From the IMG/VR virus record IMGVR_UViG_3300049433_000110, positions 1 to 64,000 of that record: DNA of 64,000 bases. One strand, written 5' to 3'. The notes below the pieces were generated by a model. That model was not told where the DNA came from. It ran no database searches and saw nothing but the letters and a program-made list of their open reading frames with translations. Made by a program: the position numbers and the translations under genes. This document shows positions 2,353 through 37,204 of the stretch, piece by piece; position 1 is the stretch's first letter, and each line of letters begins with the position of its first letter. Origin of the DNA: a virus.

Positions 2353-2510
2353 CGCCGCATTCGATCTGCTGTCGTGGCTGCTCGACGTGGCGACGTGTAT
2401 ATGGGCGTGCAGGTGGTTGCGTTGGCGCTAGACCGGATACAAGGGTGCGTCTTGACCTCGTGGGTAAACCTTTGCCTCCTGTAGCTCACTCTCTCGTTCC
2501 GGCTGCCTGA
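2331..2510 (+). CDS. Doubtful small ORF overlapping the end of terL
   Basis: ATG 2331 has an AAGGAG eight bases upstream and gives 59 residues, running 83 bases into the 3' end of terL on the other strand. A different frame, GTG 2342 to TAG 2431, gives a 29-residue hydrophobic peptide (FDLLSWLLDVATCIW) that ends at the terL stop. At most one of the two is real. Confidence 0.3.
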   Translation: MASSWVLTPHSICCRGCSTWRRVYGRAGGCVGARPDTRVRLDLVGKPLPPVAHSLVPAA

Positions 2511-4044
2511 CCAACAGCCCCATGTCGCGCAGCTTGCGCAGGCCCATCGAGGTCAAGTCAACGTACTCGTCGTGGCGAGCCTTGGGGAAGGCCCCCACCT
2601 GGGCGATGACCCCCTCCATCCACGGCCGGTCCGGTCCATAGATGATGCCTTCGGCAAATAGGTGTTGGACGCTATAGAGGCGGGCGGCCTTGTCCTGGCT
2701 CTTCGGGTCGAACAATTCGACGCCGAACCGCTCGCGCCAGTACAGTCGCCGGATCTCTTGACTGACACTGTGCCCGGAAGCCTTGTTCTCGATGAGGAGC
2801 AGGTCCACCTTCATCTTGATGCAGGTGTCGGCGACCTTCTCCACCAACTCATGCAGTTCGAGTCGCGCCGTCCAGGCGTACATGCACATGACGTGCGGGG
2901 CGAATTCGGAGTAGGTTGAATTCATGCGGTGCGGCGTGCCATCGGCGTCGATGATGCGCGTGGTCGCTGCTTTCACGTCGCCCGAGAAGATGCCCCAGAT
3001 GATCATCCCACTCGGATCGTTCATCCGGTCTTCCGTGTAGGCGCCATCCAATGTAGCCAGCACAAAGTCCATCGGCGGGTAGGAGTCGTGCTCCCAGAGC
3101 TTCCACCACTCCCGTTTGACAATTCCACCACCCTTGGGCTCGGGACGCTGCTGGATCTGGCCGGCGAAGGTGTACGGTCCCATGCTCTTTTCGAGCCGCT
3201 TGAGATACTCCTCGCTGAAGCGCTCCGGCCACAGCAACTCGTTAGGTTCCGTGCGCGGGTCTGTCCAGCCGATGACGGTGTGAAAGGAGCGTTCCGGCTC
3301 GTACCGGCCCGGCAGACACAGATGTGACCAGCCGTCCGCTTCGTGCTCCAGGATGTGTCCGGTCAGGTCATCTTCGCCCAAGCGCTGCTGAATGATGATG
3401 AACGCGCCCAACTCCGGATCATTCAGCCGCGTCGGCATGGCCGTGGTCCACCAGCTGATCGTAGCTTCGGTCGTGGCCTCGCTCTCCACATCGTTGGCCG
3501 CGTTCGGGTCGTCGATACAGATGATGTTGCCGCCTTCACCGGTCACACCGGCCCCGATGCTGGTGATGAGCCGGTCGCCGCCTTTGTCGTTGGTGAAGCG
3601 CGATTTCGTATTCTGATCGGTCGTCAGTTGGAATCGTGTGCCCCAGCGTGCCTGATACCAGGGCGATTCAATCAGTCGGCGGCATTTGACCGAGTCGCGC
3701 AGGCTCAACTTGTCGGCATAGGAGGCATACAGGAACGGAACGCCTGCGCCACAGGTGGGTGTTGAGTTAGGTTGCGCCCAGGTCCAGGCGGGGAAAGCGA
3801 CGGAGACGGTGTTGCTTTTCCCAATCCTCGGCGGGCAGTTGATGATGAGTCGCTTGATCTGTCCGTCGACGACGGCTTGCAAGTGTTCGCAGATGGCATC
3901 GACGGCCCAGGCATCCTTCCACTGCGCCGGATCGATATAGCGCCATGCCGATTTGAGGAACGTGTAGAGCGACTCCTCGCAATCGGCCCGATCCAGGTCC
4001 AAAAGTTGGGCCTCGCGGTCAAAGTTCGGCGGTAATTCGAGCAT
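2428..4044 (-). CDS. terL: Terminase large subunit
   Basis: 538 residues, usual length for TerL. It packages DNA into the prohead as an ATP-driven motor and cuts the concatemer. The ATPase half has a Walker A CPPRIGKS at 70-77 and a Walker B IICIDDP at 174-180 with the following acidic pair. The nuclease half has a first acidic strand (ATLDGAYTED, Asp333), a second (LLLIENKASG, Glu419) and a final HDEYVD (491-496), the RNase H-like set. AAGG lies about seven bases before the ATG. It is the only minus-strand gene among the late genes, divergent from the portal group; no small terminase is recognised next to it. Confidence 0.96.
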   Translation of the reverse strand: MLELPPNFDREAQLLDLDRADCEESLYTFLKSAWRYIDPAQWKDAWAVDAICEHLQAVVDGQIKRLIINCPPRIGKSNTVSVAFPAWTWAQPNSTPTCGAGVPFLYASYADKLSLRDSVKCRRLIESPWYQARWGTRFQLTTDQNTKSRFTNDKGGDRLITSIGAGVTGEGGNIICIDDPNAANDVESEATTEATISWWTTAMPTRLNDPELGAFIIIQQRLGEDDLTGHILEHEADGWSHLCLPGRYEPERSFHTVIGWTDPRTEPNELLWPERFSEEYLKRLEKSMGPYTFAGQIQQRPEPKGGGIVKREWWKLWEHDSYPPMDFVLATLDGAYTEDRMNDPSGMIIWGIFSGDVKAATTRIIDADGTPHRMNSTYSEFAPHVMCMYAWTARLELHELVEKVADTCIKMKVDLLLIENKASGHSVSQEIRRLYWRERFGVELFDPKSQDKAARLYSVQHLFAEGIIYGPDRPWMEGVIAQVGAFPKARHDEYVDLTSMGLRKLRDMGLLVRQPERESELQEAKVYPRGQDAPLYPV

Positions 4045-4568: not shown

Positions 4569-4774
4569 GCGTCACACGCATTCCTTGGACGACCATTGTC
4601 GAGTTGGGCGTCCCCCCTGCTTCCATCGCTCATTACTCCGTGAACGCCGATATGGCATGGGTGGATCGGCGCTGTATTCGGCGGCACATCCGCCGAGCGC
4701 GCGCGCGAGTCCAAGAGGGCATCTCTCGCGTGTTGTGGATTCATAGGCTTGATGCGCTGGAGCGACGCCTGTGA
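4565..4774 (+). CDS. Small basic protein before the portal
   Basis: 69 residues from ATG 4565. The C-terminal half is very basic (RRCIRRHIRRARARVQEG). The ends overlap both neighbours (ATGA, GTGA), so translation is probably coupled to the portal. Confidence 0.5.
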   Translation: MSVTRIPWTTIVELGVPPASIAHYSVNADMAWVDRRCIRRHIRRARARVQEGISRVLWIHRLDALERRL

Positions 4775-7161
4775 GCGGCCTCGCCGGCATGCACAACGCC
4801 AACCTGCGGATCGTGGGCAAGCCCGACCCCGAGTTGCCAGGGGCGGCCAAAGTCATCGTCGACCTGCAGGACGATCAGGCCGACAGCCCCGACATCGACG
4901 ACAGCGGCAACATCCTCAGAATCACCCACGGCGATGGGGCGATCACGGTCTCGCTCGACGGTAAGCCCTTGGGCAACGTGAATCCGGCCAACGACGGGCC
5001 CACCGAGTGGTTCGGGAATCTGGCCGAGAAGATCCCCGACGATGAGCTGTCCCGCCTCACCGAGGACCTGCTGCAGGGCATTGCCGATGATCTGCAATCG
5101 CGTTCGGAGTGGATCGAGGACCGCGCCCTCGGCGTGAAGCTGCTGGGGCTGAAGATCGAGATTCCCAATGTGGCCGGCGGGGCGGACGGCGCACCCGTGG
5201 AGGGCATGAGCAAGGTCCGCCACCCACTGCTGCTCGAGGCGGTGCTGCGCTTCCAGGCGAACGCCCGCTCGGAACTGCTGCCAACCGATGGACCGGTGAA
5301 GATCCGCAACGATGCCACCGCACCGGACCTCACCACCGACCAGCTGGCCACCGCGCTCGAGCAGGACTTCAATCACTACCTGACCGCCGTCGCCACCGAG
5401 TACTACCCCGACACCGACCGCATGCTGTTCATGACGGGGTTTGGCGGCGACGGGTTCAAAAAAGTCTACACGTGTCCGCTGCGTAACCGCCCGGTGTCCG
5501 AGTCGATCGACGCGGATGACCTGATTGTCAACATGACGGCCACCGACTTGGCCAACGCTCAGCGCGTCACCCATCGGGTCATGATGCGGCCCTCGACGTT
5601 GAAGCGCATGCAGATCCTGGGGGCGTATCGGGATGTCGAGCTCGGCGATGCGGTGACGCCCCAATCGGATGCGCTGCAAGCGGAAGAAAAAGCCCAGCAA
5701 GGCCTGTCGGATAACGGCATGCGGCGCCCCGCCGACCGCGAGCGCGAGTTGTATGAATGCTGCTGCGAGTTGGATATCGCCGGCTTCGAGCACAAACACA
5801 AGGGCAAGCTGACCGGGCTTGCCATCCCCTACGTGGTGACGATCGATGTCTCCTCCCGACAGGCCTTGTCGATTGTCAGGCGATTCGAGCAGGACACCCA
5901 GGCGCTCCCCGTCGCCCGGCAGCGCTTCGTGAAATTCCCATTCGTACCGGGACTGGGGTTCTACGGCATCGGCCTGCTGCACATCCTGGGCAACTCGACC
6001 AACGCCATCACGGCCGCCTGGCGCGAGATGTTGGACAACGGCATGTTTGCCAACTTCCCTGGATTCCTCCATGGCGATTCGGGACAACGCCAAAACACCA
6101 ACATTTTCCGAGTAGCCCCGGGCGCCGGTGTTCCGATCAAGACCGGCGGCATCCCGATTCGCGATTTCGCGATGCCGCTGCCCTACAGCACGCAGCAGAT
6201 GCCGGCCTTGATGGCCCTCGTGCAGGACATGGCCGAGACCGGCCGGCGCATCGGCGGCACCGCGGAAGTGCAGGTGGGTGAGGGCAGGGCGGACGTCCCG
6301 GTGGGCACCGTGATGGCCATGATCGATCAGGCGATCAAGGTCATGAACGCCGTGCACAAGCGCATGCATGCCGCGCAGGCGGAAGAATTCCAACTGTTGA
6401 AGCGCGAGTTCCGAGAGAACCCGGAAACATTCTGGTGCCGCGGCTGCAAGTCGAAAACCCAGTGGGACAAAGAGAAATTCTTAGCCGCGCTCAACAACTG
6501 CGACCTCGTGCCCCAAGCCGATCCCAACACGTCGTCTTCCGGCCAGCGCATGATGAAAGTGATGGGGCTAAAGCAACTCCAGCAAGCCAGTCCGAATCTG
6601 TACGACCCGATCAAGTGCGATACTGCGGCGCTGAACGCGATGGGATGGCCGAACCCGGAAGAGTTCTTCGTGCCGCCCGCGGCCCGCGCCGCCCCGCCGC
6701 CACAACTTCAGCAGGCGCAGGCGCAGATGAAGAACGAGGCCACGAAGGCAGCCGCCGATGATAAGCGCGCCACCGCTGATCTCATCGAGGCGCAGGCCGC
6801 CAACAAAGAGACCGAGACCAAGATCGCGGTCGGTCACTTCACTCCAAAGCAGGAATCGGCAGGATTGGCCGGATCTCAACAAGTCGATACGCCCGTGGAT
6901 AAGGCCACCGCGCAAGCCAAACTACTCGATGCGCATACCCGCGCGCGCGAGGCCACGGTGCACGAGCGGGTGGCGGCGGCCGAGGATCAGAACCGCGACC
7001 AAGACCGCGTGGCAAAAGAGCGTGAAGCGGCAATTAAGTTGGCATCCGATGTGATTCGGGCGCCTACTCATCCGATGAGCGGCAAGCCGGTCGACGTGGG
7101 TGATGCGGGTCACAAGGCGCACAAGATCATCCAGGATGTGGATCGAGGCATCACGCAATGA
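4771..7161 (+). CDS. Portal protein, P22-like
   Basis: 796 residues from GTG 4771. The portal is the dodecameric ring at one head vertex through which DNA enters and leaves; TerL docks on it. The core shows the pattern of large podovirus portals: RMLFMTGFGGDGFKKVY, then RPVSESIDADDLIVNMTA, then a long helical part around FVPGLGFYGIGLLHILG. The last 150 residues are a charged, Ala-rich helical stretch (ATADLIEAQAANKETETK), which fits the C-terminal barrel of P22-type portals. The length is close to P22 gp1 (725). The family is assigned from pattern, not by alignment. Confidence 0.9.
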   Translation: MSGLAGMHNANLRIVGKPDPELPGAAKVIVDLQDDQADSPDIDDSGNILRITHGDGAITVSLDGKPLGNVNPANDGPTEWFGNLAEKIPDDELSRLTEDLLQGIADDLQSRSEWIEDRALGVKLLGLKIEIPNVAGGADGAPVEGMSKVRHPLLLEAVLRFQANARSELLPTDGPVKIRNDATAPDLTTDQLATALEQDFNHYLTAVATEYYPDTDRMLFMTGFGGDGFKKVYTCPLRNRPVSESIDADDLIVNMTATDLANAQRVTHRVMMRPSTLKRMQILGAYRDVELGDAVTPQSDALQAEEKAQQGLSDNGMRRPADRERELYECCCELDIAGFEHKHKGKLTGLAIPYVVTIDVSSRQALSIVRRFEQDTQALPVARQRFVKFPFVPGLGFYGIGLLHILGNSTNAITAAWREMLDNGMFANFPGFLHGDSGQRQNTNIFRVAPGAGVPIKTGGIPIRDFAMPLPYSTQQMPALMALVQDMAETGRRIGGTAEVQVGEGRADVPVGTVMAMIDQAIKVMNAVHKRMHAAQAEEFQLLKREFRENPETFWCRGCKSKTQWDKEKFLAALNNCDLVPQADPNTSSSGQRMMKVMGLKQLQQASPNLYDPIKCDTAALNAMGWPNPEEFFVPPAARAAPPPQLQQAQAQMKNEATKAAADDKRATADLIEAQAANKETETKIAVGHFTPKQESAGLAGSQQVDTPVDKATAQAKLLDAHTRAREATVHERVAAAEDQNRDQDRVAKEREAAIKLASDVIRAPTHPMSGKPVDVGDAGHKAHKIIQDVDRGITQ

Positions 7162-13070: not shown

Positions 13071-13108
13071 TATGTATAAGGCTCTCAACACTGTTGAAGA
13101 AGCCGCAC

Positions 13109-13642
13109 ATGGGTAAGTCATTCGACATCGATATGACTGAGTACGTGCCGTTTGAGCGTGTGTCGGACAGTGATCTACAGCGCGCACGCATTTTCAATAA
13201 ATGCCGCATGTCTGACACCGGCTGTTGGTTGTGGACCGGTCCCACCAACGGTAAAGGATACGGTGTCTTTTACGTTGGCACGAAGAATCGCCACGCGCAC
13301 CGGTGCAGTTACGAAGTCTTCAAGGGATCAATCCCCGAAGGGCTGCATGTCCTTCATGCGTGCGATACGCCGCTGTGCGTGAATCCTGCGCATCTTCGGG
13401 CGGGCACGCATCGCGAAAACATGACAGATCGAGATACGCGGAAACGCAGAGATGTTCGCGGAAATCAGATCGGGACCTCAAAGCTAACTGAGCAGCAAGC
13501 GCGAGAGATAAAGTCATCTCCGCATGTCAAGCCGAAGATCCTCGCAGAGAAGTATGGAATTCGGCCAGAACACATTTGGCGTATTCGGACTGGCAAGAGC
13601 TGGGCACATGTGAAGCCCGCGGAGAATGTAGATGGCGATTAA
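13109..13642 (+). CDS. HNH homing endonuclease
   Basis: 177 residues from ATG 13109 (TTG 13094 also possible). The HNH motif is at about 80-104: LHVLHACDTPLCVNPAHL then GTHREN, with His and paired Cys as in the HNH_3 group. The end is a helix-turn-helix (ILAEKYGIRPEHIWRIRTG). It overlaps the coat gene start by 11 bases, so the coat ATG lies inside this gene. It is the second of two endonucleases that flank the cement gene. Confidence 0.9.
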   Translation: MGKSFDIDMTEYVPFERVSDSDLQRARIFNKCRMSDTGCWLWTGPTNGKGYGVFYVGTKNRHAHRCSYEVFKGSIPEGLHVLHACDTPLCVNPAHLRAGTHRENMTDRDTRKRRDVRGNQIGTSKLTEQQAREIKSSPHVKPKILAEKYGIRPEHIWRIRTGKSWAHVKPAENVDGD

Positions 13643-14546
13643 TCTCTCGGCCATTAAGGACCTGTTGTTGCCAGGTCTCCGGGGTGTCACTGGCAAGTAC
13701 GAATCCATAGCAAGCCAGCATGACAAGGTATTTACTAAATACACCTCCAAGATGGCGCTCGAGCGCACGGCTGAGATGCGCTACCTGGGGCTCGCGCAGC
13801 TGAAGACCGAAGGCGGCCAGACCGGCTTCGACAACAGCGCCGGTGAGCGCTACGTCTATAACCAGGAGCACATCGAGATCGGCTTAGGCTACGCGATCAC
13901 GCGCAAGGCCATCGATGACAACCTGTACAAGACGCAGTTCCACCCGTCGAACCTGGGGTTGATGGAGTCATTTCACCAATTCCAGGAGATCTACGCCGCG
14001 AACGTGCTCAACACGGGGACCACCTACAACTCCTCTGTGGGTGGTGACGGTGTAGCGCTCTTTTCCGCATCCCATCCGATCGATGGCAATGTCATTGCCA
14101 ACACGCCTACCACGCAGGTGGATCTGAACGAAGCGACATTGCTGAATGCGATGGTGGCCGTCCGGACGAACTTCAAAGATCAGGCCGGCTTGAAGATGTT
14201 CGCGCGCTTCCGCAAGCTCATGGTGCCGCCGCAGCTGGAGCCGGTTGCGATCCGTCTCACGAAGACCGAGTTACGTCCGGGAACGGCGGACAACGACGTC
14301 AACGCGATCATGTCTACGGCCGGCGGCATCCCCGAAGGCTACATGGTGATGGATTTCCTCACCTCGCAGTTCGCGTGGTTTGGACTCACCAACATTCCGG
14401 GACTCGCCTTCATGGATCGCATCCCGTTTGAGACGGATATGCAGGTTGACTTCGTGACGGATAATTTGCTCGTGAAGGGATATTCGAGGTGGAGCTATTC
14501 GTACTTTAATTGGAGATCGGCGTGGGGAACCTTCCCGACTTCGTGA
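13632..14546 (+). CDS. Major capsid protein, Mu gpT-like
   Basis: 304 residues. It shows the pattern of the Mu gpT group of HK97-fold coat proteins: LFSASHP in the middle, then LNEATLLNAMVAVRTNFKD, then KLMVPPQLEPVAIRLTKTE and a C-terminal strand set. It builds the head shell. It starts inside the HNH gene and has only a weak ribosome site there, so its translation may depend on the upstream ribosome. No protease is seen nearby. Confidence 0.88.
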   Translation: MAINLSAIKDLLLPGLRGVTGKYESIASQHDKVFTKYTSKMALERTAEMRYLGLAQLKTEGGQTGFDNSAGERYVYNQEHIEIGLGYAITRKAIDDNLYKTQFHPSNLGLMESFHQFQEIYAANVLNTGTTYNSSVGGDGVALFSASHPIDGNVIANTPTTQVDLNEATLLNAMVAVRTNFKDQAGLKMFARFRKLMVPPQLEPVAIRLTKTELRPGTADNDVNAIMSTAGGIPEGYMVMDFLTSQFAWFGLTNIPGLAFMDRIPFETDMQVDFVTDNLLVKGYSRWSYSYFNWRSAWGTFPTS

Positions 14547-25593: not shown

Positions 25594-26282
25594 GCATGAA
25601 GACATCAGGTACCTACGCCTTCGCACCCTCGATGGGAGAGGCAGTTCTGTACGCTTTCGGGTTGTGCGGCGTGCGCCGTACCGCAATCACCCAACAGCAC
25701 ATGGAAGACGCCCGCATGGCGACCAACATGTTGATGGGGCGCTGGAGCGCGGATGGAGTCAACTTATGGCAGGTTGACTTGGTCAGCTTTCCTCTTATTA
25801 AAGGGCAACCGACATACCCCGTCCCCTGCAACACGATCGTGATGCTCGATATGTACTACACGATCAACAATGGCGCACAGTCTATAGACCGAATCGTCAC
25901 TCCAGTGAGTCGTACGGAGTACGCGAGCTATCCCAACAAGAATCAGCAGGGAAGCCCGACCGTAGCATGGTTCAACAGACTGCTATCTCCCACTGTTACC
26001 TTGTGGTTGGTACCTAACGGACAGCAAGCCTCCTTCAGTTACTATCGACTGCGACAAACACAGGATTCTGAATTTAAGAATGGAACTAACGTCGAGATTC
26101 CCCCGTACTTTTTGGAATCTTATGTATTCGGTCTGGCAACTCGACTGGCTGCTATTTGGGCGCCTGACAGAGCGGTGGGACTGAAAGCAATGGCGGATGA
26201 GGCTTGGGGGATCGCAAGCAGACAAAACATCGAGCAATCGAATTTTTACGTCTCTCCTAGTGTGGGAGGATATTTCCGGTGA
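25590..26282 (+). CDS. Head-tail adaptor, P22 gp4-like
   Basis: 230 residues. Helical start with EAVLYAFGLCGVRRTAITQQ, then LMGRWSADGVNLWQVDLVSF, a beta core and a helical end (FGLATRLAAIWAPDRAVGLK). This is the pattern of podovirus adaptor proteins that sit under the portal and close the head (P22 gp4, SU10 adaptor). Its stop overlaps the GTG of a GIY-YIG gene. Confidence 0.75.
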   Translation: MSMKTSGTYAFAPSMGEAVLYAFGLCGVRRTAITQQHMEDARMATNMLMGRWSADGVNLWQVDLVSFPLIKGQPTYPVPCNTIVMLDMYYTINNGAQSIDRIVTPVSRTEYASYPNKNQQGSPTVAWFNRLLSPTVTLWLVPNGQQASFSYYRLRQTQDSEFKNGTNVEIPPYFLESYVFGLATRLAAIWAPDRAVGLKAMADEAWGIASRQNIEQSNFYVSPSVGGYFR

Positions 26283-27226
26283 CAGAGGAGAACGTATTCT
26301 ACGTATACGAACACTGGCGTCCTGACAAGAACGTCTGTTTCTACGTTGGCAAGGGGAAAGGTAAGCGCGCCTGGAGTTTGGTGCGTGTACGAAACAGGTG
26401 GCACACTGGCGTGGTGTCTAAACTCACGTCAATTGGACTCACGGTTGATGTGCGCATCATAGCATCCAACCTATCAGCGCAGGATGCTCTGGCCATGGAA
26501 ATAGAGCGCATTGCCATGTACGGCAGGGGAAATCTGACCAATTTAACTAGAGGGGGCGATGGTCTTGTTGATCCCTCTCCTGAGGTTGTGCGCCGCATAT
26601 CAGAATCTCAAAAGGCTAGATATGCCAAAATGACACCAGAAGAGCGCGCTAAGTTTTTTGAATGTTTCAAAAACAGACCTCCAATTTCTGAGGAGACGAG
26701 AAAAAAATTATCCCTGTCGAGTACGGGGAGGTGTCATGACGCTAACGCAAGAGAGCGCATCAGTACAGCTCGAAAGGCAGCAGGTATGCCTCGCCATGTT
26801 ATAGAGGCATCCATTAGGGCTAAGACTGGAAAGAAGCTCGCCCCCTTCAAGGATTCAACTATCGAAAAGATGAGATTGGCATCTATTGAACGAGAACGCA
26901 GAAAAAAGGAGAAGAGACTGGCCGATTGTTTGCCACATCTAACTGTAAAGTCTAGATCTGTAGTATGCCTAGATGATGGGAAAATATTCCCTAGCATAGC
27001 AGTAGCTTCCGAATATTACGGAATACACCGAACTACGATTAATCAGGTATGCAAGGGCGTCCGTAGCCACAAAACGGCCGGTGGAAAAAGGTTCGCCTAT
27101 GAGGAAGAAAGGGAAATCAGGCTGAATGCCCCGTTTCAACTTCGCTCCCCTATTACAGAAGAAGCTAGACGAAACATTTCCGAAGCTGCGAAGTTGGGCT
27201 GGTTGAAGAGGAAAAAGGCAGCGTAA
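26279..27226 (+). CDS. GIY-YIG homing endonuclease
   Basis: 315 residues from GTG 26279. The GIY-YIG domain begins at residue 6: FYVYEH then FYVGKGKGKR, with a later Glu in AMEIERIAMYG. A long basic tail carries NUMOD-type DNA-binding units (PISEETRKKLSLSSTG; VVCLDDGKIFPSIAVASEYY, then an HTH GIHRTTINQVCKG). Clearly richer in A+T than its neighbours. It fills the junction between two tail genes exactly: GTGA at one end, TAATG at the other. Confidence 0.93.
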   Translation: MTEENVFYVYEHWRPDKNVCFYVGKGKGKRAWSLVRVRNRWHTGVVSKLTSIGLTVDVRIIASNLSAQDALAMEIERIAMYGRGNLTNLTRGGDGLVDPSPEVVRRISESQKARYAKMTPEERAKFFECFKNRPPISEETRKKLSLSSTGRCHDANARERISTARKAAGMPRHVIEASIRAKTGKKLAPFKDSTIEKMRLASIERERRKKEKRLADCLPHLTVKSRSVVCLDDGKIFPSIAVASEYYGIHRTTINQVCKGVRSHKTAGGKRFAYEEEREIRLNAPFQLRSPITEEARRNISEAAKLGWLKRKKAA

Positions 27227-31778: not shown

Positions 31779-33875
31779 GTGCCGCACGCACTTCTTAGAC
31801 TCGTGCCGGGTGTTGATTCTCAAGAGACACCCGCGCTCAATGAAAACTCGGGCATTTCTCAGTCGCAGTTAATAAGGTTCTTTCCTGATCGTAACGGGTT
31901 GGCTTTGGTCGCAAAGTTGGGCGGCTGGAATCGTTTTTTTGGTCAACCGATGCCGGCCATCGCCCGAGCTCTCTGGGCATGGGAAGACCTGAATCTCAAC
32001 ACGCATCTTGCGGTAGGGACGCAGACGACTGCCAACGGATATGCACTGTTGGGCGTCATCACCAACGGCATCCTGCAGAACATAACGCCTCAGCAATCTG
32101 CTGAAGACATCGCGCCCGCGGTCGCGACGACCTCGGGAAGCTCCATTGTCACCATCACCGACAACACGACGCTGGGCATCACCGGCTACGATTCGGTTTA
32201 CATCGCGACGCAGATCGCCATTGGCGGCGTGGTGTTGTTCGGTCTGTACCAGTGCGGCTTGCTGAGCAACAATGCCTACACGGTGCAGGCGGTCGATATC
32301 CTGGGTAACCCGCTGCCGGCCACCAGTTCCTCGACGTCGCCCGTGTTGCCAGTCTTCACAACCGTCAGCGGCTCGTTGACAGTCACCGTCAATCTGCCGC
32401 ATTACATCTATCAAGTGGGAGGCACCTTTTCGGTATTGGTGGCCACGACCGTCGGCGGCATCACGCTGTACGGAAACTACGTGGTGCAGTCGCTGGTAGA
32501 CGCGAGCAACTTCACGATCATTGGCGGAAATCCGGCGAACGCTTCGACCAGCGGCACGTTGAACGGAGGCAACGCCCATCTCATCTACAGTTACGGCTAC
32601 GGCACGATTCCCGGCGGTATCGGATACGGCGCCGGGGCCTACGGGGCGGGTGGCTACGGCACGGGCAATGCGGTATCGCCGGCTTCGGGTACCTGGATTA
32701 CGGCGAACGATTGGACGCTGGATAACTGGGGTGAGATCCTGATCGCCTGCGCGGATCAGACACTCACGCCCGGCACGACACCGTTCCAACCGCTGTATCA
32801 ATGGGAAGAAAACGTGACGGGCGCCACGATCATCACGGCAGCGCCGCCGGTCAATGACGGCGCCTTTGTCGCGATGCCTCAACGGCAGATTGTGGCGTGG
32901 GGGAGCACGCAGACCGGGATTCAAGATCCGCTGCTGGTGAACTGGTGCGATGTCAACAACTTCAACCAGTGGATTGCGCTGCCCACCAACCAAGCCGGTT
33001 CCTATCGCATCCCGCGAGGATCTCGGATTGTGGGAGGGCTGCAGGGACCGCAGCAGGCCATCCTGTGGACCGACATCGACGCCTGGTCGATGCAGTACAT
33101 CGGGCCGCCGTACATCTACTCATTCAACGAGATCGGTTCAGGGTGTGGACTCATCGCGCGCAAGGCCGCAGCGTTCATGAACGGAATCGGGTATTGGATG
33201 GGACCGTCGCAATTCTTCACTCTGAGTGGGGCAGGCATACAGCCGCTACCCTGTACGGTCTGGGATGTTGTGTTTCAGAATTTGCACCCCAATACGGCAA
33301 ACCTCTACAAGATCAGAGTGGCCGTGAATTCCCTCTTTGGGGAGATCACGTGGTACTACCCATCCGCGAATGGAACAGGCGAGATCGACTCCTATGTGAA
33401 ATATACCGCGCTGCTCAATATATGGGATTACGGCACGCTGGGCCGTACGGCGTGGGTCGATCAATCTGTGCTGGGACCTCCCATTGGCGCTGATCCGGTG
33501 ACGGGGCTGCTGTATCAACACGAGACCTCCAACGATGCTGACTTGCAGGCCATGCAGCCGTACTTCCAGAGCGGCTACTTCACGCTCAGCGAAGGGGATC
33601 TGAAGACGTTCATTGACTTGATTTGGCCGGATATGAAGTGGGGCAAAGTTTCGCAATCGCCGACAGCGGTCGTGCAGGTCAGTTTTTACGTGGTTGACTA
33701 CCCTGGCGACACGCCGACGATTTACGGCCCGTACTCAGTGACGCAAGCGACTCAGTATTTCAACACTCGACTTCGGGGTCGATTGGTTTCCATCAGGATA
33801 TCGAGCAGTGACCTAGGTAGTTGGTGGAGGATCGGCGCGCTGCGCTATCGATACGCGGCCGACGGCAAATTTTGA
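31779..33875 (+). CDS. Tail nozzle / DNA stabilisation protein, P22 gp10-like
   Basis: 698 residues from GTG 31779. After a short N-terminal part and a beta insertion (about 110-290), the core has the known pattern: NWGEILIACADQ, VAMPQRQIVAWGS, DPLLVNWCDVNNFNQW, ILWTDIDAWSMQYIG, FNEIGSGCGLIARKAAAFMN, LYQHETSNDAD. In P22 gp10 forms the plug-holding hub below the adaptor. Gly/Tyr-rich stretch near residue 285 (GYGAGAYGAGGYG). Only the start codon overlaps are lacking; three bases separate it from the adaptor. Confidence 0.8.
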   Translation: MPHALLRLVPGVDSQETPALNENSGISQSQLIRFFPDRNGLALVAKLGGWNRFFGQPMPAIARALWAWEDLNLNTHLAVGTQTTANGYALLGVITNGILQNITPQQSAEDIAPAVATTSGSSIVTITDNTTLGITGYDSVYIATQIAIGGVVLFGLYQCGLLSNNAYTVQAVDILGNPLPATSSSTSPVLPVFTTVSGSLTVTVNLPHYIYQVGGTFSVLVATTVGGITLYGNYVVQSLVDASNFTIIGGNPANASTSGTLNGGNAHLIYSYGYGTIPGGIGYGAGAYGAGGYGTGNAVSPASGTWITANDWTLDNWGEILIACADQTLTPGTTPFQPLYQWEENVTGATIITAAPPVNDGAFVAMPQRQIVAWGSTQTGIQDPLLVNWCDVNNFNQWIALPTNQAGSYRIPRGSRIVGGLQGPQQAILWTDIDAWSMQYIGPPYIYSFNEIGSGCGLIARKAAAFMNGIGYWMGPSQFFTLSGAGIQPLPCTVWDVVFQNLHPNTANLYKIRVAVNSLFGEITWYYPSANGTGEIDSYVKYTALLNIWDYGTLGRTAWVDQSVLGPPIGADPVTGLLYQHETSNDADLQAMQPYFQSGYFTLSEGDLKTFIDLIWPDMKWGKVSQSPTAVVQVSFYVVDYPGDTPTIYGPYSVTQATQYFNTRLRGRLVSIRISSSDLGSWWRIGALRYRYAADGKF

Positions 33876-34243
33876 TGGCTAACCAACCACAACAAACCGG
33901 CGGTGCATCCCTCTCAGACGTCCTGACCGTCGCCAAGAACATTGTTCAGGCGATCAGCGCGCTTGCGCAAGGTTATCTCAACGTCCAGGGCGCGCAGAAC
34001 TTCGCGGGACTGGCAGCCGCCACGGTCGTGAAGTCCTCTGCGGGCCGCATCGCGAACATCAGTGTTATCGTTGCGGGCTCAGCGACGGGAGCCGTGTACG
34101 ATAGCGCGGCGACGGGAAACACGGCCAAGCCGTTGTTCATAATTCCAATGACCGTGGGAGTGACTGTGGTCAATCTGCCGGCGAGCTTCGGCATAACGAT
34201 TGTCCCCGGTACGGGCCAGACTGTGAGCGGGAGCTTTTCGTAG
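33875..34243 (+). CDS. Small virion protein after the nozzle
   Basis: 122 residues, TGATG junction. Helical start (VLTVAKNIVQAISALAQGY), then a beta domain with VVKSSAGRIANISVIVAGS, a pattern common next to gp10-like genes. Probably a virion protein. Confidence 0.65.
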   Translation: MANQPQQTGGASLSDVLTVAKNIVQAISALAQGYLNVQGAQNFAGLAAATVVKSSAGRIANISVIVAGSATGAVYDSAATGNTAKPLFIIPMTVGVTVVNLPASFGITIVPGTGQTVSGSFS

Positions 34244-35218
34244 ATGCCACTCGCACCGGGCAAACGCAACATCGGTCGGAACATTGAGACCGAACAGGAC
34301 GCAGGCAAGCCTCACGAGCAGGCGGTTGCCATTGCGCTCGATGTGGCACGCCGCAAGCGGGCCGAGGGCGGCTCGACTACCCACAAGTACCACTCGGGCC
34401 CGATCCACAGTTCTGTTGCGGGGCGTACCGACCATCTTCCAATTACTGTTGAGAGTGGCAGTTATGTTTTGCCGGCCGACGCGGTTTCCCATCTTGGAGA
34501 ATCGAATACGCTCGCCGGCTTCAAAGTGCTGCGCCGGATGTTCGGCGGGGAGCCGTATGGCGGGAACGGGCATCCTTACGGCCAGTCGGGCGGTCCCTAC
34601 GGAGCTTCCATGGGGCGGGCAACGGGCGGCAAGGTTGAGCGCCGCGCCGCCGGCATCCTCTTCGTCTCGCCCGAGAAAGAGGTGCTGTTGATGCGCCGCG
34701 CGGGCAAGGATCACTCGGGCGAATGGGCGCTCCCGGCCGGGGGGGTTGAAAAGGGCGAGACTCCCGAACAAGCAGCTCGGCGCGAGACGGAAGAGGAGGC
34801 CGGATACTCCCACGAGGGAGGGCTCTCTCCTTTCATGCACAGTGAGCGCGACGGCGTTGTATTTGATACATTTTTGGCTCAGTCTACCGACAAGTTCAAA
34901 CCCCAACTTAACGATGAACATGACGGTGCGATCTGGATCAAGCCATCTGAGGCAGAAAAAAAGCTTCCCTTGCATCCGGGGGTGCGCAGCGCGCTCGAGA
35001 AACTCTCTCGACGAACTGGCAAGGCGCATGGCGGGGAGACATCGGGAGTGCCGATCGTGGCGGCGGGGGGTGAGTGGGTGATTAGTCCACATCACGTTGA
35101 GCAGATTGGGGCGGGCGACATGGATCGAGGTCACCGCGTGCTCGATGCGTTTGTGCTCAAGATCCGCAAAGAACAGATTGGCAAGTTGCAGAAGATGTCT
35201 CCGCCGAGGAAGGACTGA
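34244..35218 (+). CDS. Virion-type protein with inserted Nudix hydrolase domain
   Basis: 324 residues. Residues 1-130 (with HSGPIHSSVAGRTDHLPITV and YVLPADAVSHLGESNTLAGF) and 265-324 (GVPIVAAGGEWVISPHH, GHRVLDAFV) look like two parts of one conserved podovirus protein that I recall as continuous elsewhere. Between them, 133-256 is a complete Nudix domain: Nudix box 166-188 with G-x5-E-x7-RE-x2-EE-xG, Glu residues at 172 and 181-185. Nudix enzymes cut nucleoside diphosphates linked to another group, such as NAD(H), ADP-ribose or RNA caps. GG motifs (RAEGG, RATGGK) mark the joints. If the protein enters the virion, the enzyme would be carried with it. The substrate cannot be read. Confidence 0.8.
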   Translation: MPLAPGKRNIGRNIETEQDAGKPHEQAVAIALDVARRKRAEGGSTTHKYHSGPIHSSVAGRTDHLPITVESGSYVLPADAVSHLGESNTLAGFKVLRRMFGGEPYGGNGHPYGQSGGPYGASMGRATGGKVERRAAGILFVSPEKEVLLMRRAGKDHSGEWALPAGGVEKGETPEQAARRETEEEAGYSHEGGLSPFMHSERDGVVFDTFLAQSTDKFKPQLNDEHDGAIWIKPSEAEKKLPLHPGVRSALEKLSRRTGKAHGGETSGVPIVAAGGEWVISPHHVEQIGAGDMDRGHRVLDAFVLKIRKEQIGKLQKMSPPRKD

Positions 35219-35219
35219 C

Positions 35220-35360
35220 ATGCAAAAGCTACTCTGCCACCTGTTGGGACATCGCGGAGCAACCGTGAGTGTGCTTGTCACAATCAATGGTCGCTATTGC
35301 CACAGTCATGACTACTGTGAGTTTTGCAGACAGGAGTACCCACCGGGGGTCCTTCTGTGA
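35220..35360 (+). CDS. Tiny His/Cys-rich peptide
   Basis: 46 residues from ATG 35220, two bases after the Nudix gene stop. LLCHLLGHRG and YCHSHDYCEFCRQEY could bind zinc. Its TGA overlaps the GTG of the next gene (GTGA). Function unknown. Confidence 0.5.
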   Translation: MQKLLCHLLGHRGATVSVLVTINGRYCHSHDYCEFCRQEYPPGVLL

Positions 35361-35863
35361 GCCTAACCCTCTCCATCTACGACGACCTCAAAATCCGCCT
35401 CGGCACTACGGCGGACATGGATGAGGTCATGCAACTCGCCATCATGGCAGCTGCAGAGAACGGCGCCATGTCGGCAAGTAAACTGTTGCTAGTCAAAATC
35501 GTCTGGCCCAAGTTGACTCTCCAGAACGGCATAATTGGCTGTATCGGTAAGCCGGGCGGCAAGATCGAGGGCATGGTGGTGCTGCAAGTTGGAACGTTGC
35601 CCTATACAGAAGAACCATGCGTGGAAGAAATTGTGCTCTTCGTGCATCCTGACTTTAGAAATGCCAAGGGTGGGCGCGCTACCAAATTACTCGAGTTCAG
35701 CCGATCGGCATCGCAGAAGTTGGAATTACCTCTGGTGATCGGAGTTTTTTCGACAATTGCCACGCGGCAGAAGTGCAAGTTGTATGAGCGTGTGTTAGGT
35801 CCGCCATCTGGTAATTATTGGATCTACGGGCGGAAAACGGGTGGGCATGAGGTAGGGGCGTGA
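35357..35863 (+). CDS. GNAT-family acetyltransferase
   Basis: 168 residues from GTG 35357. GNAT pattern: beta strand with VEEIVLFVHPDFRNAKGGRA (motif A, acetyl-CoA pocket), then helix and a last strand (YWIYGRK). It moves an acetyl group from acetyl-CoA to an unknown amine. Related phage GNATs sit among late genes; role unknown. Next to the Nudix-bearing gene it forms a small enzyme cargo. Confidence 0.75.
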   Translation: MSLTLSIYDDLKIRLGTTADMDEVMQLAIMAAAENGAMSASKLLLVKIVWPKLTLQNGIIGCIGKPGGKIEGMVVLQVGTLPYTEEPCVEEIVLFVHPDFRNAKGGRATKLLEFSRSASQKLELPLVIGVFSTIATRQKCKLYERVLGPPSGNYWIYGRKTGGHEVGA

Positions 35864-36066
35864 GCGATCCAGGTCCATTCGACGACGCAGATATCCTCAT
35901 GCGCTTGCGTGGCATCGTGTCTGAGTTGCTCACCAAGCATACAGATGCCAAGGAAACCGGGAATTCAGGCTGCGGCATGGGGTCCGCCGATGTTGAATTT
36001 GACCTCAATGGAGTAAAATTCACGGTGTCAATCAGTCTGTCTGAGGATGACGACGTTGAGCACTAG
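35860..36066 (+). CDS. Small acidic protein
   Basis: 68 residues from GTG 35860 (GTGA overlap). N-terminal helix (DDADILMRLRGIVSELL) and a beta pair (ADVEFDLNGVKFTVSISL). The next HEG starts within it, 20 bases before its stop. Confidence 0.5.
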   Translation: MSDPGPFDDADILMRLRGIVSELLTKHTDAKETGNSGCGMGSADVEFDLNGVKFTVSISLSEDDDVEH

Positions 36067-37204
36067 AAAAGCCAAGAAAAACACGCCGGAGCATAACGCT
36101 AAAATAGCGGCGGCGCACCGTGGCAAAAAGCTGTCCCCCGAGCATAGAGAAAAATGTCGACTGGCTTCCCTCGGTCGAAAACAGACTCCACAGGAAATCG
36201 AGGCTCGTCGTTTAGCAAATACTGGCAAAAAGCGTTCGCCGGAATTTTGCGAACTCATGCGGCAACTCCAGGCCAATCGGACACCGGAACAGAAAGCCGC
36301 GCAATCCGAACATATTCGTCAACGGAACTTAAATAAGACACCGGAACAGAAAGAAAAGGAACGGCTCGCATTGGTAGCTCGCAATAAAGCGAGAGCCGGA
36401 GAAAAGCGGCAGTTTCCGCCGACACGCGAGGCAGGAAGTACTGATCCCGTATTTTACGTATATGAGCATTGGCGCTCCGATACCGGGCAGCCATTTTATG
36501 TCGGCAAGGGATTTAAAAAACGCGCCTATCAGATGACGATGCGCAATCGGCATCACATGTTTGCGCAGGACTATCTGAAGCGAATTGGAGCCTTGATCGA
36601 AGTCAAGATAGTCGCCGTATATTTGACTGAGCGCGAAGCATTAGATTTGGAAATTGAGCTAATAGAGAAGTGGCTTACGTCTGGTTGTAAGTTAGTCAAT
36701 ATTACTAAAGGCGGTGATGGGCCTACGGGCAGAAAGCACACGGAAGAGTGGAAGCGAGCGATGAGTGAGCGAATGAAGGGACGAAAGATGTCACCCGAAG
36801 CGCGCGCAAAGATTGCGGCTTCTGCAATTGGCAATAAGAGAGGATTAGGTAAGAAAAAGCCGCAGCACGTGGTTGATGCCATGCGGGCGCTATTCACTGG
36901 AAAACCTAAATCCGAAGAGACCAAGAGGAAGATATCCGAATCGAAGAAGGGTAAGCCGTGGAATGGTGTGCACTCTCCTGAGCTTCTCGCGAGGAGAAGC
37001 GCAGAGATGACGGGCATCCCGTTCTCCGAAGAGAGGAAACTAACTATGCGCGGCATTCCGAAGAGTGAAACGCATAAACAGAAGCTGAGAGAGATCAATT
37101 TGGGGAAGACGCATGACGAGGAAACTCGCAAACTTCTTTCCGAAATTGCAAAAGCCGATTGGGCTCGTCGCAAGGCTAAAAAAGCCTTGGAAACAGGGGA
37201 GTAG
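36047..37204 (+). CDS. GIY-YIG homing endonuclease with NUMOD3 arrays at both ends
   Basis: 385 residues. N-terminal 120 residues are a row of NUMOD3-like units (TPEHNAKIAAAHRGKKLSP; SPEHREKCRLASLGRK). The GIY-YIG domain follows at about 134-225 (VFYVYEHWRSD, FYVGKGFKKRAYQM, ALDLEIELIEKW). Four or more further NUMOD3 units fill the C-terminus (KSEETKRKISESKKGKPWNG). Having DNA-binding arrays on both sides is uncommon; most GIY-YIG enzymes have them only at the end. It is A+T-rich compared with its flanks and lies in frame with the next gene, from which only one TAG separates it. Confidence 0.92.
   Translation: MTTLSTRKAKKNTPEHNAKIAAAHRGKKLSPEHREKCRLASLGRKQTPQEIEARRLANTGKKRSPEFCELMRQLQANRTPEQKAAQSEHIRQRNLNKTPEQKEKERLALVARNKARAGEKRQFPPTREAGSTDPVFYVYEHWRSDTGQPFYVGKGFKKRAYQMTMRNRHHMFAQDYLKRIGALIEVKIVAVYLTEREALDLEIELIEKWLTSGCKLVNITKGGDGPTGRKHTEEWKRAMSERMKGRKMSPEARAKIAASAIGNKRGLGKKKPQHVVDAMRALFTGKPKSEETKRKISESKKGKPWNGVHSPELLARRSAEMTGIPFSEERKLTMRGIPKSETHKQKLREINLGKTHDEETRKLLSEIAKADWARRKAKKALETGE

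Follow-up and report, generated by a model that had tools for sequence, protein, structure and literature searches.

How a complete Nudix hydrolase domain comes to lie inside a protein encoded among the tail and ejection genes of a podovirus-like phage, and what it would do there, is the question raised by one locus in the window, by which we mean the whole 64,000-nucleotide stretch of viral DNA that was analysed. The first-pass annotation had described a virion-type protein interrupted by the enzyme and had proposed that the enzyme acts on NAD, ADP-ribose or NAD-capped RNA. The insertion into a conserved protein of the ejection module is borne out by comparison with relatives; the specificity for NAD, ADP-ribose or NAD caps is not.

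Architecture of the carrier protein

The carrier ORF encodes 324 aa and starts directly 3' of the stop of the preceding gene (Table 1). Pfam returns a single domain, Nudix (PF00293, 85.8 bits against a cut-off of 21.1), and PHROGs returns Nudix families together with phrog_2423 at residues 1-42. The complete domain and near-perfect box noted at the outset are thus confirmed; the domain coordinates first given (34640-35011) are right within a few residues, the piece inserted relative to the relatives being 34631-35035. With respect to the superfamily pattern GX5EX7REUXEEXGU, all catalytic positions of the box GGVEKGETPEQAARRETEEEAGY fit and the first hydrophobic (U) position alone deviates, being T. 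In the AlphaFold2 model (one row from the annotated-phage collection was excluded from the input), the Nudix domain is a confident, independent fold (pLDDT about 90-96, residues 141-250) that matches PDB Nudix enzymes and is flanked on both sides by low-confidence linkers, residues 103-129 being mostly below 50. An antisense ORF of 402 aa (34079-35287, minus strand) also covers the carrier; since relatives conserve the plus-strand frame, it looks like a GC-rich shadow ORF.

Table 1. Features of the carrier gene and its neighbours in the window.
Feature	Position	Strand	Evidence
P22 gp10-like tail (tubeB / stabilization) protein	31779..33875	+	phrog_3287 E 2.5e-58
Small conserved protein between tail protein and carrier	33875..34243	+	homologue upstream in 8/8 Nudix and 91/99 other loci
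Carrier protein with Nudix cargo	34244..35218	+	ORF and translation; Nudix also in 8 other complete orthologues
N module, residues 1-44, two predicted helices (phrog_2423)	34244..34375	+	phrog_2423 E 4.6e-12
M module, residues 48-106, HSGPIHSSVAGRTDHLP...NTLAGFKVLRRMF	34385..34561	+	family HMM E 6.5e-38; invariant columns in alignments A6/A7
PYG-rich linker, RATGG at its end	34562..34630	+	sequence
Inserted segment, residues 130-264: Nudix domain and KAHGG linker	34631..35035	+	comparison with L007 and L015; slot-length survey
Nudix domain, residues 133-252	34640..34999	+	PF00293 E 3.5e-24; pLDDT; dN/dS
Nudix box, residues 166-188	34739..34807	+	pattern match
C module, residues 269-324 (VPIVAAGGEWV...GHRVLDAFV...), second copy of the M-type repeat	35048..35215	+	HMM E 4e-35
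GNAT acetyltransferase-like protein	35324..35863	+	phrog_1249 E 0.001; Acetyltransf_7 E 0.0076, below cut-off
NUMOD3 homing endonuclease	36047..37204	+	PF07460 E 8.4e-15; phrog_314 E 1.8e-31
Ejection protein A, 1255 aa, S74 chaperone segment	37250..41017	+	phrog_4287 DNA ejection protein E 1.3e-12; phrog_6121 E 3.8e-15; PF13884

Members of the family share one order of parts: the N module (a predicted helical hairpin, with helices at residues 7-19 and 24-41 in the AlphaFold2 model), slot 1, the M module, the PYG linker, slot 2 and the C module. M and C align with each other at an hhalign probability of 90.9 (P 1.1e-6), the model of each weakly matches the other copy within the window protein, and the order strand, short helix, long helix is common to both in the AlphaFold2 prediction. 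By profile and predicted structure, a small module is present twice, as M and as C. Because its flanks are copies of one module, the Nudix domain is placed between repeats; an insertion inside a folded domain was considered and ruled out, the site being the linker between the two repeats. The modules are bounded by [KR]-x-A-x-G-G linkers, which occur 268 times in the 125 proteins surveyed below versus 15.5 times in shuffles, and the inserted segment, absent from the empty relatives, consists of the domain and one additional linker of this kind. No processing protease was identified.

The chassis itself corresponds to no Pfam or NCBIfam family, and a structure search of the empty carrier against the PDB gave no match (all E >= 2). 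The N module resembles the start of "head maturation protease" proteins in the Acinetobacter phage AP22 group and also opens a Nudix-DUF2213 fusion in L103 (5932-7926); virion proteins may thus share it as an N-terminal tag.

Empty-site relatives, other cargo and gene order

Megablast of the locus against phages found no match, so the locus was compared at the protein level throughout. The flanks had been held to be parts of one conserved phage protein, and homologues in which both are continuous, without a Nudix domain, were indeed found: a 193-aa protein in MW202675 (P0002; the one such record among annotated phages by tblastn) and a 164-aa protein in IMG/VR (L007). A profile built from these two has at least 592 relatives in IMG/VR. 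IMG/VR and a genome scan together supplied a survey set of 125 distinct proteins in which both flank modules are present. Slot 2 is an 11-46 aa linker without Nudix in 101 of the 125, measures 155-162 aa in nine Nudix carriers (window included) and holds segments of 98-310 aa rich in Gly, Ala, Ser, Pro and Asn in 15, proportions that are skewed by the choice of queries and do not represent population frequencies. Two more Nudix carriers (L005, L006) are both cut by contig ends. Presence of the Nudix domain in nine complete contigs rules out an assembly artefact. Among viral structures, an uncharacterised phage protein of 206 aa matches best, aligned across 339 columns; 206 aa are too few for both flanks and a Nudix domain, and we read the gap in this alignment as the Nudix domain.

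In another lineage, slot 2 holds Gly/Ala-rich segments of about 200 aa with repeats such as YTGLWDMVNGGGPGAG (L151, L153, L157, L161, L173, L175, L176, L182-L184, L192, L194, L202 and L203). Some Gly/Ala-rich slot-2 segments end in hydrophobic glycine-rich stretches.

The Nudix domain evolves under purifying selection, with pairwise dN/dS of 0.06-0.15 for the pairs where it could be computed; the flanks give comparable values and the PYG linker looser ones (0.19-0.46, window comparisons). Catalytic residues are all kept in the nine complete orthologues. In the tree of M and C the Nudix carriers group, and constraining them to one clade improves the likelihood (p-AU 0.63); their Nudix domains likewise form one clade (support 87/85, 90% of bootstrap trees), and several insertion origins are not required. 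This clade adjoins, with weak support (81/51), the Nudix domains of the Bcep781 portal protein and of the DUF2213-type protein of QDWS. The Bcep781 domain is among the closest cousins (48.6% identity), and others occur in DUF2213-type head proteins of QDWS, PdC23 and L103.

Slot 1, nearer the N-terminus and following the N module, is occupied in relatives by other enzymes. In 15 members that have an N module it is 156-551 aa long, small conserved modules counted, and it holds an ART-PolyVal domain in L039 (1e-21) and an InPase domain in L055 (4e-51); L100 bears a Zeta toxin domain (2e-9) and a Nudix domain on one protein. Several inserts matched no Pfam family. ART and InPase are domains of phage polyvalent proteins, which are thought to be packaged and injected (PMC5512222). 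Slot 1 of L034, L055, L068, L088 and others also contains a small recurrent module, GGGLYANIHAKxxRIxHGSxExMRKPG (phrog_16028), of which L055 has two copies.

The carrier gene lies in a tail/ejection module, as first read from the window, and this module is P22-like, with a gp10-like gene (phrog_3287) upstream and an ejection protein gene (phrog_4287) downstream. Among loci with enough sequence, the gp10-like gene is upstream of the carrier in 8/8 Nudix loci and 98/99 others, and GNAT followed by the ejection protein is downstream in 7/7 Nudix loci and 79/79 others; the order P22-gp10-like protein, small protein, carrier, GNAT, ejection protein is near-invariant. (For the small protein we chose the ATG at 33875; the ORF list begins at the TTG at 33821.) Both downstream genes named by the first-pass annotation are present. 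The GNAT match is weak when taken alone, and the NUMOD3 homing endonuclease lies outside the conserved module, GNAT directly abutting the ejection gene in L007 and L015. Because the position of GNAT is so constant, it suggests a morphogenetic role, for example acetylation of a virion protein. The GNAT gene lies at 5386-5928 in L007, 6592-7086 in L015 and 12957-13391 in L226, and a GNAT gene also precedes the ejection genes of Roseobacter phage CRP-901.

Elsewhere the window encodes a terminase (2428-4044, minus strand) and a portal (4771-7161), and a head-protein match lies at 13632-14546. The late structural genes are broken up by homing-endonuclease-like ORFs at 13094-13642, 26279-27226 and 36047-37204, with HNH_3 (E 5.8e-12) and NUMOD3 (E 8.4e-15) matches among them; the ORF at 26279 has a GIY-YIG-like start by eye and no Pfam match. 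A serine recombinase near the window start (262-1023; Resolvase PF00239, E 5.4e-26) may point to a temperate lifestyle. Nine genome-collection loci sit in metagenome bins from unrelated phyla, and for this reason no host is assigned.

Substrate and role of the Nudix domain

None of the Nudix equivalog models reaches its cut-off. Scores are 17.6 bits versus 248 needed for ADP-ribose diphosphatase (NF008003), 22.1 versus 79.55 for YffH/AdpP (TIGR00052), 19.3 versus 158 for NADH/NAD diphosphatase (NF001299), 33.4 versus 97.9 for mutt (TIGR00586) and, far below, 26.9 versus 169 for NudE (NF008736). ADP-ribose pyrophosphatases are marked by a proline about 15 residues past the Nudix box, and NADH/NAD diphosphatases by SQPWPFPxS after it; in the carrier, residue +15 is D and SQPWPFPxS is absent from the sequence. 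Structural matches in the PDB are led by Ap4A/Ap6A hydrolases, DR1025, RenU and MutT-type enzymes (best matches 1ktg, 1vc8, 1sjy and 4dyw, with E down to 1.3e-10 and TM-score on target up to 0.83), and many Nudix classes score alike. The NAD/ADP-ribose specificity proposed earlier is therefore unsupported by equivalog models, signature positions and structure. As no equivalog model is reached and the PDB matches are led by these other classes, NAD/ADP-ribose is one among several substrate options.

On balance, we favour the view that this protein serves the ejection module as a modular carrier of cargo, the Nudix domain being one such cargo and probably delivered at infection. Gene order and homology bear on this reading directly, and the later steps are ones that we infer. 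The N module and two strand-helix-helix repeats are joined by A-x-G-G linkers, with the Nudix domain spliced into the linker between the repeats; relatives keep slot 2 empty and may load other enzymes in the slot after the N module. The carrier would be assembled into the particle next to the gp10-like tail protein and ejection proteins and would enter the cell along with them. Its presence in the particle and entry into the cell are plausible given the synteny, the cargo of relatives and the Nudix cousins in portal and DUF2213 proteins. Once inside, the Nudix domain would hydrolyse a nucleoside-diphosphate-X compound as infection begins; the likeliest candidates are an RNA 5' end or a nucleotide that signals stress or defence, of dinucleoside-polyphosphate or ADP-ribose type.

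The same gene could serve the producing cell instead, the Nudix domain cleaning the nucleotide pool or RNA ends late in infection while the carrier awaits assembly, and the next host receiving none. We consider this unlikely: the gene does sit in a late structural cluster and MutT-type 8-oxo-dGTP hydrolases are among the nearest matches in sequence and structure, but housekeeping leaves unexplained why Nudix domains of this type recur in virion proteins (portal, DUF2213 protein, carrier) and why ART, InPase and Zeta toxin domains ride on the same carrier in relatives. The cargo pattern among relatives also argues against the carrier being an assembly helper or chaperone for the tail module that stays out of the virion, its Nudix fusion being incidental, as does the finding that M and C modules end larger proteins in clusters of the same type (L201, L213 and a 639-aa protein of MW202545). 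Such a helper would agree with a carrier known here from genes alone, with a phage, phiM5, that manages without one and with an empty fold that has no PDB match, yet we judge it improbable. Slot 2 accepts low-complexity inserts of similar length (98-310 aa in 15 other members), which would allow the Nudix domain to be a mere structural spacer; intact catalytic residues in nine complete orthologues and the low dN/dS of the domain make this very improbable.

For the family beyond the window, the cargo-carrier reading can be extended tentatively. P22-like ejection machinery may generally use carriers as its delivery chassis: short proteins of the virion whose two slots take interchangeable cargo and have A-x-G-G linkers, perhaps protease sites, at their borders. 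Different phages would load the slots with Nudix, ADP-ribosyltransferase, pyrophosphatase or Zeta-type enzymes, which would act on the host at the outset of infection. If the carrier is in the particle, the family offers a natural experiment, in which the same virion protein occurs with or without an enzyme or with different enzymes per slot, and the injected enzyme cargo of short-tailed phages becomes directly testable.

Relation to known systems

Sinorhizobium phage phiM5 has a P22-type ejection/tail module with the same neighbours, including homologous gp10-like and S74 ejection proteins, but without a carrier between the gp10-like and ejection genes. Its gp10-like protein, S74 ejection homologue and following internal virion proteins are annotated as part of the particle proteome. 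The relation of gp10-like (tubeB) proteins to P22 is discussed in PMC10386132. As an enzyme, the domain shares the Nudix fold with Ap4A/Ap6A and MutT-type hydrolases (1ktg, 1vc8, 1sjy, 4dyw); at about 22-32% identity, however, their substrates are not transferable to it.

Polyvalent proteins (Iyer et al., 2017, PMC5512222) resemble the carrier family in their effector types, ART-PolyVal and InPase being present in carrier relatives, and in being encoded among virion genes, as the carrier is between gp10-like and ejection genes. They are defined by at least two disparate effector domains; the window protein has one enzyme, whereas L100 carries two. In contrast to polyvalent proteins, the window protein is short (324 aa), no peptidase domain was identified in it, and it is built on a small conserved chassis in which the slots are defined.

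Fusions of Nudix domains to MuF, portal and capsid-processing peptidase proteins are also close to the present case; packaging and injection were proposed for them (Iyer et al., 2022, PMC9503650). As in the T4 NudE-like fusions described there, the Nudix domain is attached to a virion-morphogenesis protein, and the nearest cousins of the window domain are in the Bcep781 portal and DUF2213 proteins. The window domain differs in three respects: it scores 26.9 against the 169 required by NF008736; it is carried by a protein of the tail/ejection module rather than of the head; and it lies between two repeats, with clean empty-site relatives. Nudix fusions to head proteins, and the proposal that Nudix domains are packaged through fusion to virion proteins, are already in PMC9503650; a tail/ejection protein now joins the head proteins known as Nudix bearers. 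No description of the carrier chassis was found in the open-licence papers searched; what is new is the carrier, its comparison with empty sites and the swapping of cargo, which extend the concept of PMC9503650 to a P22-like tail/ejection chassis.
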